A stretch of 64,000 nucleotides of DNA, taken from NCBI RefSeq assembly GCF_003987315.1, contig NZ_PIPI01000003.1:62001-126000 (forward strand), written 5' to 3'. The notes beneath the pieces are model-generated. The model saw only the letters and a list, made by a program, of their open reading frames with translations. It was not told the DNA's origin and searched no databases. Shown here piece by piece: positions 46,754 through 49,773 of this stretch. This DNA comes from Aliidiomarina haloalkalitolerans (GTDB lineage Bacteria > Pseudomonadota > Gammaproteobacteria > Enterobacterales > Alteromonadaceae). Position 1 is the first letter of the stretch; the number at the start of each line of letters is the position of its first letter. The position numbers and the translations under genes were made by a program.

Positions 46754-47140
46754 ATGGATAATAAAGCTTATATGCAAGCGCTTTACTTGGCCTTTGGGCA
46801 AGGCAATTTAGATCCTATGTTAGCGATTATGCAGGACGACACCGAATGGATCGAAGCTGAAGGTGGTCCGTATGGCGGCGTTTACACAGGTGTTGAGGAA
46901 ATCATGACCAACGTATTCGGCCGTATTCAGCAAGACTGGCAATCTTTCACCGTTGTGCCCAATCAGTTTATTGTTGATGGTGACACCGTTGTCGTACTGG
47001 GTGCTTACACTGCCACGCACAATCAAACTGGCCGCAGTTTTTCGTCACCGTTTGCGCACGTTTGGACTCTAGCTTCTGGCAAGTTAAAGCGTTTTCAGCA
47101 GTTTGTTGACACTCATTTGCATAACCAGCCATTACCTTAA
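46754..47140 (+). CDS. Cytoplasmic SnoaL/NTF2-like protein
   Basis: A 128-residue single-domain protein. ALYLAFGQGNLDPMLAIMQD and DTEWIEAEGGPYGGVYTGVE, then VVVLGAYTATHNQTGRSF with FAHVWTLASGKLKRFQQFVD, match the ketosteroid-isomerase-like SnoaL group. No catalytic residues can be assigned. GGAGGAG precedes the ATG. It overlaps the convergent nuclease gene by nine bases. Confidence 0.8.
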   Translation: MDNKAYMQALYLAFGQGNLDPMLAIMQDDTEWIEAEGGPYGGVYTGVEEIMTNVFGRIQQDWQSFTVVPNQFIVDGDTVVVLGAYTATHNQTGRSFSSPFAHVWTLASGKLKRFQQFVDTHLHNQPLP

Positions 47141-49444
47141 CTGCTCGGTAGCTCGAGCTTGGGTTAACAGCAACAACTCAGCGGCAGCGCGAGCGTCGTC
47201 GAGTGCGCGGTGATGATTGGTCAGTTGAATGTCGAAGGTCTGACATAAAGCGCCTAACGAATAGGAAGCGAGCCCCGGGAAATGTTGCCGCATGCGCTGC
47301 ACTGTGCAGATTTTTGGTAGTTTAAAAATATGCCCAAGTCGTTCATATTCACTGCGGAAAAAGCTGTAATCGAAATTCACATTATGGGCGACGAATATGG
47401 CATCGGCGAAAAATGCTTCCAATTGAGCGAAAACTTCGTGAAATTTCGGTGCAGTTGCGACCATATCGTTGTTAATTCCGGTAAGTTCGGTGATAAATCG
47501 CGGAATATGTCGCTCTGGATTAATCAACGACTGCCATTCATCAACTATTTTGCCGCCGCAGACTTTCACTAAGCCTATCTCGATAATGCGGTGATAACCT
47601 TGGGCGCCACCAGTGGTTTCTACGTCAACCACGATATAAGGCTGTTCTGGGTCGACTTGCCATTGCACGGTTTGCACAACGACGTTGAAACCTGCCTGTT
47701 GTAAACGCCGCATGCTCATCAGTTGATTGCGCCGCAAACTATCGCCCGGTGCCTTGATTTCTTCAAAGCGCAGCTGACCGTCTTCAATCACGAGTAGGTC
47801 TGGATAACCATCGTTGCGCTGCAAATAATCTTGGCTCATTTCTGTCAATACTTGCGCGAGTGCGTGCACAGGGGTGTGTTGCAACACATGCGAAAATATC
47901 TCGAGCAATGAATTGTGCCAACGAAAAACACCGTTTGCTGTGCCATAAAACTGAGCGGCAACGGCCATGAGGTGGCGCAGCCACTTGCCTGGTGAATCGA
48001 GCTCGGCAAACAAAGAGCGGATATCTTCTTCGTTTTCACGCCAAAAACTCTGCTCCCGCAAGGCCAATGGCAAGCGGTCAAACTCATTACAAAAACCATT
48101 TCCTTCGCGAAACAAGAGATGCCAAAAGGTCATGCCAAAGAGGGCTCGCCACATCCGGTTTTCGGTTCGCCAAACGAGCGCGCCGCGTCTTTGATAGTGA
48201 CGCTGCATGCCTTTTTCGACCTGGTCTTTGTGCGCTTCATCCAGAGTGACCGGCGCATCGCAGCTGCGCAGAATGTCGGTGAGAATGCTGGTGCGTTTCT
48301 TTTCAAACTTCCGTTGCAGAAAGTCTAAAGCAAAATAAAGTAAGTGCTCACTTTCCGGATTCTCAATGATTTCATTGAGTCTATTTTCAACTGTAAGCGT
48401 CTCACCTGCCTGATAGAGCAAACGCAAGTATTTCTCAATGGCGCGCGGGTCGGGTGAGCGCTGAAACAACTGCAGCGCTAATTCTTGATGGTTCTCTGCC
48501 AAGGCAAACTTACCCAACTGATAGAGTAAGTTGCCGTATTCTTGCTCAGCTAAATAACCCGTTGGCTGCGCTGCTTGCAAGCAGTATTCGGCAAAGACTA
48601 AGCGTTGCGGCGCAGTGCTGTTCTTAAATGCGGCCAGCTCGACAGACCAATACCAAGCGTTTTTCGCATCGGTTAATTGTTGAAAACGCGCTTGTAAGTG
48701 CGATAAATCATCGTCACTCTTGTTTGCGTTTGCGTTTGCGTTTGCGTTTGCGTTTGCGTTTGCGTTTGCGTTTGCGTTTGTGTTTGTGTTTGCGTTTGCG
48801 TCGGCACGGCTCGCTACGCGATTCGAAAGCAGCGCTTGGCGAGTGCCCATGACGCCAAGATCGCGCATGGAAAACTGGTTTAACGTGCCTCGCACATGGC
48901 CGAAATAGAGAAACCGAAAATAATGAAAGACTTGGTGCTCGGCGACATGAACCCAAGCTGAAAGGCTCGGTGCGTCAACCCAGTCACGTACAATTACATT
49001 GGTGCTGTTAAAAACCTCGAGCCACGCAGATTTCGTTGCGGATTTATTAGGCAGAGGCTGAAATTCAGCTTCAGTGGCCAAGTCAAATAACTGTGGTTTC
49101 GTTAGTTGATTTAAAAATATCTGCTGTAATGGGGTTTGCAAACTAACAGGCTCTGGGTGTTGTAAACACTCGACAACAGGTACGACAAATCCAGCATCTT
49201 CGAGCTCTGCTAAGGCAGCGGTAATGTCGTTAATTTCCGCATAATCTAAAGTGTTCAACGCCACAAATGGCCACTTGCGATTGAGCATTCGCACGAGCAG
49301 ACAAAGTGCGTCTTCGGATAAGGCGTGAATTTTCTCGACTATCGCGCTATCGTGAGGGTCGAGCAGGTGTGGGCAAACCTCCTCAATATAATGAAGAAAT
49401 TCAAGAAAATGATCGCGATAGTATTTTTCGGGCAGAGTCTTCAT
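47132..49444 (-). CDS. FAN1-like VRR-NUC nuclease fused to DEDDh 3'-5' exonuclease
   Basis: A 770-residue fusion. The N-terminal part resembles bacterial FAN1 (LCLLVRMLNRKWPF, LDYAEINDITAALAELEDAG, later RTENRMWRALFGMTFWHLLF). The VRR-NUC site lies at about 547-580: YPDLL with the catalytic Asp near 549, then FEEIKAPGDSLRRNQ with Glu near 562 and Lys near 564. From about 603 a DnaQ-type exonuclease follows: VVDVETTG (Asp 607, Glu 609), HNVNFDYSFF (Asp about 692) and HHRALDDARAAAELL (His about 745, Asp about 750). FAN1 is a structure-specific 5' flap nuclease for crosslink repair; a 3'-5' exonuclease on the same chain would trim the other strand. A 26-residue Asn-Ala/Asn-Thr run lies about residue 215-241. 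A LexA box sits 31 bp upstream. Confidence 0.85.
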   Translation of the reverse strand: MKTLPEKYYRDHFLEFLHYIEEVCPHLLDPHDSAIVEKIHALSEDALCLLVRMLNRKWPFVALNTLDYAEINDITAALAELEDAGFVVPVVECLQHPEPVSLQTPLQQIFLNQLTKPQLFDLATEAEFQPLPNKSATKSAWLEVFNSTNVIVRDWVDAPSLSAWVHVAEHQVFHYFRFLYFGHVRGTLNQFSMRDLGVMGTRQALLSNRVASRADANANTNTNANANANANANANANANANKSDDDLSHLQARFQQLTDAKNAWYWSVELAAFKNSTAPQRLVFAEYCLQAAQPTGYLAEQEYGNLLYQLGKFALAENHQELALQLFQRSPDPRAIEKYLRLLYQAGETLTVENRLNEIIENPESEHLLYFALDFLQRKFEKKRTSILTDILRSCDAPVTLDEAHKDQVEKGMQRHYQRRGALVWRTENRMWRALFGMTFWHLLFREGNGFCNEFDRLPLALREQSFWRENEEDIRSLFAELDSPGKWLRHLMAVAAQFYGTANGVFRWHNSLLEIFSHVLQHTPVHALAQVLTEMSQDYLQRNDGYPDLLVIEDGQLRFEEIKAPGDSLRRNQLMSMRRLQQAGFNVVVQTVQWQVDPEQPYIVVDVETTGGAQGYHRIIEIGLVKVCGGKIVDEWQSLINPERHIPRFITELTGINNDMVATAPKFHEVFAQLEAFFADAIFVAHNVNFDYSFFRSEYERLGHIFKLPKICTVQRMRQHFPGLASYSLGALCQTFDIQLTNHHRALDDARAAAELLLLTQARATEQLR
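48722..48799. repeat. 13-unit GTTTGC hexamer microsatellite inside a nuclease gene
   Basis: Thirteen six-base units: nine GTTTGC, two GTTTGT and two GTTTGC. On the coding (minus) strand they read GCAAAC and ACAAAC and encode (Ala/Thr-Asn)13. Units are in frame, so gain or loss of a unit changes linker length by two residues without a frameshift. Confidence 0.95.
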
Positions 49445-49474
49445 AACGAACCAATTATTTCTGGATAATTAATA

Positions 49475-49490
49475 CTGTACTTTTATACAG
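49475..49490. promoter_or_regulatory. LexA (SOS) box
   Basis: CTGT-ACTTTTAT-ACAG matches the gammaproteobacterial LexA consensus CTGT-N8-ACAG exactly, and the flanking TA on each side extends the dyad (TA...TA at 49473-49492). It lies between the FAN1-DEDDh gene (31 bp from its start, minus strand) and the DUF1653 gene (65 bp from its start, plus strand), so it may repress one or both. Confidence 0.82.
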
Positions 49491-49554
49491 TATTTGGCAA
49501 TTATTTTTTAACGGGATCACGAAGAAATTCGATCTTTAATCAGCGGAATACAGC

Positions 49555-49773
49555 ATGAAAGAGTTGCAAGCAGGTATTTATCGGCACTACAAAGGGCATG
49601 AGTATCAGGTGATTGACGTTGCTCGGCACTCAGAAACCGAAGAGTTATTAGTTGTTTATCGGCCGTTGTATGGCGAGCGGGCGCTATGGGTGCGCCCACT
49701 CGATATGTTTATTGAAGAAGTTGAAGTGAATGGTCAGCTACAACCGCGCTTTAGTTTCTTGCGCGACTCGTAA
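49555..49773 (+). CDS. DUF1653 domain protein
   Basis: A 72-residue protein that is entirely a DUF1653 domain: GIYRHYKGHEYQVIDVARHS, EELLVVYRPLYGERALWVRP and FIEEVEVNG. The fold is a small SH3-like beta barrel of unknown function. It shares the intergenic region, and possibly the LexA box, with the divergent nuclease gene. It overlaps the convergent MFS gene at its 3' end. Confidence 0.88.
   Translation: MKELQAGIYRHYKGHEYQVIDVARHSETEELLVVYRPLYGERALWVRPLDMFIEEVEVNGQLQPRFSFLRDS

Follow-up and report, generated by a model that had tools for sequence, protein, structure and literature searches.

The genome of Aliidiomarina haloalkalitolerans encodes, in a 64,000-nucleotide stretch of contig NZ_PIPI01000003.1 (assembly GCF_003987315.1, positions 62,001 to 126,000 of the forward strand; hereafter, the window), a single polypeptide that unites two nuclease families: a FAN1-type nuclease and a DEDDh exonuclease. 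The gene occupies positions 47132..49444 of the window on the minus strand, and its 770-residue product is confirmed as a FAN1-DEDDh fusion by an uninterrupted frame and by Pfam domain matches. In humans, FAN1 is a crosslink-repair and repeat-stability nuclease, and the steps that turn a FAN1 nick into a repairable gap are commonly attributed to separate proteins. In the bacteria considered here, candidates for these two repair steps are fused in one chain and apparently controlled by DNA damage. In our view the fusion is probably a repair nuclease under LexA control, induced in the SOS response and equipped with two active sites, in which a FAN1-like nick would be followed by trimming of the 3' end past the lesion. 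Four observations speak for this reading: the anatomy of the protein, its intact catalytic sets, the single clade formed by the fused copies, and the conservation of an SOS box.

The open reading frame begins with an ATG at 49444 and closes with a stop codon whose last base is 47132, whereas frame 1 of the plus strand over 47132-49444 contains many stops. An earlier note on this DNA had placed FAN1 blocks, a VRR-NUC site and a DEDDh set in one 770-residue protein at these coordinates, with no strand given; both the position and the domain content were borne out, since Pfam matches exceeded the cut-offs for FAN1_HTH (residues 8-87, 49184..49423; 58.6 bits, cut-off 27) and VRR_NUC (residues 500-595; 45.6 bits, cut-off 23.8), both within the first 600 residues, and for RNase_T (residues 604-758; 132.2 bits, cut-off 24). 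All features of the protein are given here on the minus strand. Alignment with the bacterial FAN1 protein PaFAN1 (PDB 4R89) assigns residues ~88-205 (48830..49183) to the remainder of the FAN1 N-terminal, SAP-type region, a label taken from the accessible parts of PMC4348246 and PMC9635880 with no Pfam match behind it. A TPR-type region at residues ~251-405 (48230..48694) lies partly within the PaFAN1 alignment, and Pfam TPR_12 reached 17.9 bits on the window protein, under its cut-off of 30.1. The FAN1 nuclease domain with its VRR-NUC core spans residues 406-598 (47651..48229), and the DEDDh 3'-5' exonuclease domain covers residues 602-761 (47162..47641). No GIY-YIG domain was matched by Pfam in the window protein up to an E value of 1.

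A profile of 17 relatives matched PaFAN1 4R89 with an E value of 4e-51 over PaFAN1 residues 19-298 and 366-558, and the same profile matched the exonucleases of DinG (8ZEF) and of a PolC-type polymerase (2P1J) with E values of ~3e-42. The helix-turn-helix, N-terminal, TPR and VRR-NUC regions of PaFAN1 (PDB 4R89/5Y7G) thus have counterparts in the fusion, together with the same E/D/E/K set. Residues 366-558 of PaFAN1 aligned almost gapless, which suggests that the nuclease domain is as long as that of FAN1 and includes the insertion region typical of the family. The difference lies at the C-terminus: the aligned part stops at residue 558 of 559, and PaFAN1 terminates where the DEDDh domain of the fusion starts. 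Because VRR-NUC is followed 2-5 residues later by the DEDDh domain and is not the C-terminal end, the fusion is a variant FAN1 and no standard member of the family.

The join is not confined to the window. Among 80 stretches retrieved by place, 64 contain fused proteins, 13 unfused proteins and 3 split genes; the 64 verified fused genes are distributed over 63 genomes, 20 genera, 5 families and at least two classes. The gap between the FAN1 and exonuclease profiles, with profile bounds of our choosing, is 2 residues in 52 of the 64 proteins, 3 residues in 10, and 4 and 5 residues in one each. An assembly error or chance join, including the sequencing error joining two genes that the earlier note had named as a possible refutation, is ruled out by these 64 copies with the same junction.

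By position count on the profile alignment, residues E428, D549, E562 and K564 of the window protein face E386, D507, E522 and K524 of PaFAN1, which are the catalytic residues of that enzyme (PMC4348246, accessible part). The exonuclease set consists of D607, E609, D692, H745 and D750. These nine catalytic positions and Q574 are identical in all 64 fused proteins, save E609 (63 of 64), in a set whose minimum pairwise identity is 31% and which falls into 45 clusters at 70% identity. Both catalytic sets are therefore intact in the fusion, and enzyme activity is predicted for each.

The survey of occurrence covered the phylum of the window through samples of order, class, phylum and family that overlap one another. 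The FAN1_HTH query matched 53 of 295 genomes in the order sample, 20 of 369 in the class sample, 55 of 398 in the phylum sample and 51 of 147 in the family sample, and most frame lengths of the matches form two groups. The 51 matches of the family sample comprise 45 fused genes, each retrieved and verified, 5 frames of unfused length and 1 split gene. The five unfused frames have 547-555 codons, and four are without an exonuclease in frame; the frame of L087 is truncated by a contig end, beyond which an exonuclease may follow, and a genome of the same genus (G1020, locus L038) has a complete unfused FAN1 frame. In each of three loci (L072, L080 and L081), FAN1 is broken up into more than one frame. 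The phylum sample yielded matches in four genomes outside the class, and every one of them carries the fusion, one in two copies. Five copies from this other class are 67-89% identical to two Bradyrhizobium plasmid copies and are referred to as Bradyrhizobium-like; the plasmid copies are at most 41% identical to any fused copy outside this group. Within the genus of the window, the fusion is present in 7 of the 17 genomes searched, and among named records the nearest, L001, shares 82% identity with the window protein. In three public records examined, the gene is labelled only "exonuclease domain-containing protein", a name under which the FAN1 half is easily overlooked. No description of a FAN1-exonuclease fusion was recognised in the titles and abstract openings of the top-ranked publications, in a collection short of most subscription journals, so that an existing description could have been missed.

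A quick tree of the FAN1 part, rooted by us on the unfused rows, parted the 64 fused from the 15 unfused rows by one branch with 100% support in the Shimodaira-Hasegawa-like approximate likelihood ratio test; none of the 15 unfused rows fell inside the fused clade, and the Bradyrhizobium-like copies formed one clade within the fused side. This topology fits a single fusion event and later transfer. Each genome with a match in the order, class, phylum and family samples has one FAN1_HTH match, except G712 with its two fused copies, and thus no genome was seen with both fused and unfused forms.

A putative LexA (SOS) box, TACTGTATAAAAGTACAGTA, stands upstream of the gene at 49473..49492 on the minus strand, 28 bases 5' of the start codon, with a score of 27 of 28 in an in-house scheme. 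In the 64 kb, a single CTGT-N8-ACAG core is present against 0.96 expected by chance, so the weight of the box rests on its position and on its conservation in relatives. For the relatives, the scan reached from position -250 to position +90 relative to the earliest potential start, and dinucleotide-preserving shuffles were used as the control because the first per-locus control windows could overlap the box itself, as locus L137 shows. Among the 59 gammaproteobacterial fused genes, which are related and do not amount to 59 independent trials, 44 have a box with a score of 22 or higher out of 28 (3.0% of shuffles), 31 one with a score of 24 or higher (0.08%), and 22 the strict CTGT-N8-ACAG core (0.3%). 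A CTGT-type box at 22 or above also precedes 4 of 13 unfused FAN1 genes, a hand-picked and non-random set, against 0.4% of shuffles.

The Bradyrhizobium-like copies show another type of box. At a score of 21, a CTGT-type box was found in none of the five; the strict core occurs in one of them at a chance-like distance. The motif GAAC-N7-GAAC is located upstream of all five, compared with 1.2% of shuffles, and it was absent from 33 downstream windows and from the upstream regions of the 59 gammaproteobacterial copies. The same motif precedes lexA in four of four Bradyrhizobium-like hosts. In the genome of the window, lexA has two CTGT-type boxes and recA has one; a second, weaker LexA_DNA_bind match in this genome has no CTGT-type box. 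The box therefore appears to follow the LexA of the host. The SOS box claimed in the earlier note was thus recovered, recurs in relatives and changes with the LexA motif of the host, and we propose the fusion as a candidate for SOS/LexA control through a box that apparently matches the host's own motif.

DEDDh enzymes digest DNA from 3' ends, and when a FAN1 nick falls just past the junction in a flap strand, the piece that bears the flap ends in a 3' hydroxyl. FAN1 enzymes favour 5' flaps, with cleavage a few nucleotides beyond the junction (PMC9635880, accessible part). By analogy with these relatives, the FAN1 part would bind branched or crosslinked DNA and nick the strand with the 5' flap a few bases beyond the junction, thereby freeing a 3'-OH; the DEDDh domain, attached nearly without linker to the natural end of FAN1, would digest from the new 3' end toward the junction and the lesion; and removal of the damaged stretch would leave a gap for filling. 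The FAN1-type cleavage, the 3'-5' polarity, the hand-over between the two sites and the role in crosslink repair are all expected from relatives. The earlier note had pictured a dedicated damage-repair enzyme able to process both strands. This interpretation is supported in part: the one-chain FAN1-DEDDh protein, the genuine join and the SOS box were borne out, but action on both strands, while possible, is favoured by no result. Since a FAN1-type nick leaves a 3' end usable by a 3'-5' exonuclease, we infer that action on one strand fits at least as well. With two candidate steps in one chain, their coupling is open to study in a single purified protein and in mutants of either active site, and the presence of the fusion in many other bacteria suggests a cut-and-trim repair enzyme whose activities are predicted from sequence.

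Comparison with other DEDDh proteins places this model among related arrangements. The exonuclease-GIY-YIG (Cho-like) fusions, represented by the mycobacterial form and by loci L019-L021 and L142, also join a DEDDh domain to an endonuclease; unlike in the window protein, where the endonuclease is FAN1 and the exonuclease is C-terminal, their endonuclease is of the GIY-YIG type and their exonuclease stands at the N-terminus. When 11 other DEDDh domains were scored, L019-L021 were best (153-175 bits), and the other eight reached 93-126 bits; in the exonuclease tree, long branches meet, which leaves a weak link to these fusions. For the mycobacterial Cho-exonuclease fusion, digestion from the nick through the lesion was proposed (PMC1564403, accessible part), and by the same token nicking and then trimming on one strand would be the simplest joint reading of the present fusion. 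An exonuclease-DinG protein (PDB 8ZEF) has a DEDDh domain close to that of the fusion, but its partner is a helicase; for the DinG of S. aureus, the available part of the report describes a role in mitomycin C repair without LexA control (PMC12345164). MrfB of B. subtilis combines DEDDh and TPR in mitomycin C repair (accessible part of PMC11194089); it differs in being without a FAN1 nuclease and in having the helicase MrfA as partner. Both proteins show DEDDh enzymes at work in mitomycin C repair and are parallels to the fusion, not tests of it.

Several results weigh against an SOS-induced nick-and-trim enzyme. In one fused protein (L067, genome G777), exonuclease motif I reads DIGTSGG and has lost its first catalytic Glu, with the FAN1 residues preserved, and trimming is accordingly not indispensable. 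The fusion was not found in 10 of the 17 genomes of the genus. A box scoring at least 22 is absent upstream of 15 of the 59 gammaproteobacterial copies, including four of seven from the same genus (L130-L133) and all four of another genus (L082-L085). A simple scan of the minus strand around the window box detected no sigma-70-like promoter, and an AlphaFold model of both domains together, based on two sequences, was discarded at a predicted local distance difference test score (pLDDT) of 39.

The strongest rival explanation, which we consider unlikely though worth weighing, is that the two domains perform independent jobs: FAN1 would nick flaps or crosslinks, the DEDDh domain would clear stalled nascent 3' ends or proofread for SOS polymerases, and fusion would serve common induction and place. 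The relationship of the DEDDh domain to the polymerase-associated exonucleases PolC and epsilon is in line with this idea, as is a Y-family polymerase domain frame beside the fusion in two of seven Bradyrhizobium-like loci (L148 and L155). However, such neighbours are not general, no neighbour family being present in more than 3 of 18 loci, and the near-constant junction of 2-5 residues, together with the lack of any unfused row in the fused clade, suggests that geometry matters. An anti-mobile-element or defence nuclease in place of a repair enzyme is very unlikely. The exonuclease part is matched by the PADLOC candidate PDC-S48 and by a CRISPR-associated DEDDh model, and the fusion is patchy in the genus and plasmid-borne in Bradyrhizobium; but the PADLOC matches are limited to residues 598-767 and may reflect DEDDh domains in general, the neighbours (not scanned for defence genes) include no family shared by more than 3 of the 18 loci, and a repair function is indicated by the SOS box and by the homology to FAN1. 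Slightly less credible still is a mainly DNA-holding or structural DEDDh module with dispensable catalysis, which would accommodate the motif-I Glu lost in one copy of 64 but not the retention of all five residues in the other 63 at pairwise identities down to 31%.

No neighbour family is shared by more than 3 of the 18 loci, whose flanks of a few kb were compared, which rules out a constant neighbourhood. The window and its nearest relative do have neighbours in common, and in a motif search DUF1653 was found beside the fusion in these 2 of the 64 loci. In the window, the fusion adjoins a gene for an MFS transporter; a DUF1653 gene (49555-49773) diverges from the fusion gene across the intergenic region that holds the SOS box. 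A damage-response gene, coding for SRAP (SOS response associated peptidase) or a Y-family polymerase, adjoins the fusion in four of the seven Bradyrhizobium-like loci. SRAP lies just upstream, 75 bases off, on the plasmid of Bradyrhizobium sp. 172 (L149:4158-7139) and directly upstream of one of the two G712 copies (G712:C1:1298145-1301159). As a constant partner SRAP was rejected: 22 of 34 fusion genomes have it, and within these it adjoins the fusion only at one of the two G712 copies. The polymerase domain frames (IMS; IMS_C) at L148:4198-4857 and L155:8148-8732 are short and may thus be pieces or other subtypes. A possible site-specific recombinase family was noticed by eye near the fusion in L151, L152 and L149, all Bradyrhizobium-like.

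In a search of plasmid proteins, 5 of 358 matching records cover at least 80% of the protein, three from Pseudoalteromonas and two from Bradyrhizobium. The two Bradyrhizobium plasmids are typed as conjugative, and the one Pseudoalteromonas plasmid record examined, of three, is typed as non-mobilizable.

The window copy is set apart by a GTTTGC hexamer repeat (48722..48801, minus strand; 13.3 units, 97% matches in the repeat scan), which codes for an Ala-Asn run at residues ~215-241, in the loop between the FAN1 N-terminal and TPR regions. Measured from G197 to R253, this loop has 55 residues in the window protein, as against 21 in its closest relative and a range of 12-27 over the 63 remaining fused proteins; its length is 13 residues in 44 of the 64. 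Of the 63 further fused proteins compared, none has the repeat-coded run, and four tandem hexamer units were found nowhere else in the genome of the window nor in four genomes of the same genus searched. In PaFAN1, helix 11 and the loop to helix 12 form the "wedge" that enters the flap junction (PMC4348246, accessible part), and by alignment the Ala-Asn loop would occupy the place of this wedge. Because six is divisible by three, gain or loss of hexamer units preserves the reading frame. The expanded loop, the single clade and the plasmid carriage were all absent from the earlier note. Together they allow an extended version of the nick-and-trim reading, doubtful when taken as a whole: a self-contained crosslink-repair machine that would have arisen once, been rewired to the LexA of each host and travelled on conjugative-typed Bradyrhizobium plasmids, with substrate handling tunable in the species of the window by the length of the wedge-loop microsatellite.

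A phage gene was ruled out, none of 156 matching phage records covering 80% of the protein. On viral contigs, with search patterns taken from the exonuclease part alone, six loci match the exonuclease end only, from residue 569 onward. One of these six loci (L142:1-1359) encodes an exonuclease-GIY-YIG protein, whose neighbours are, judged by eye, an integrase and a tape-measure protein.

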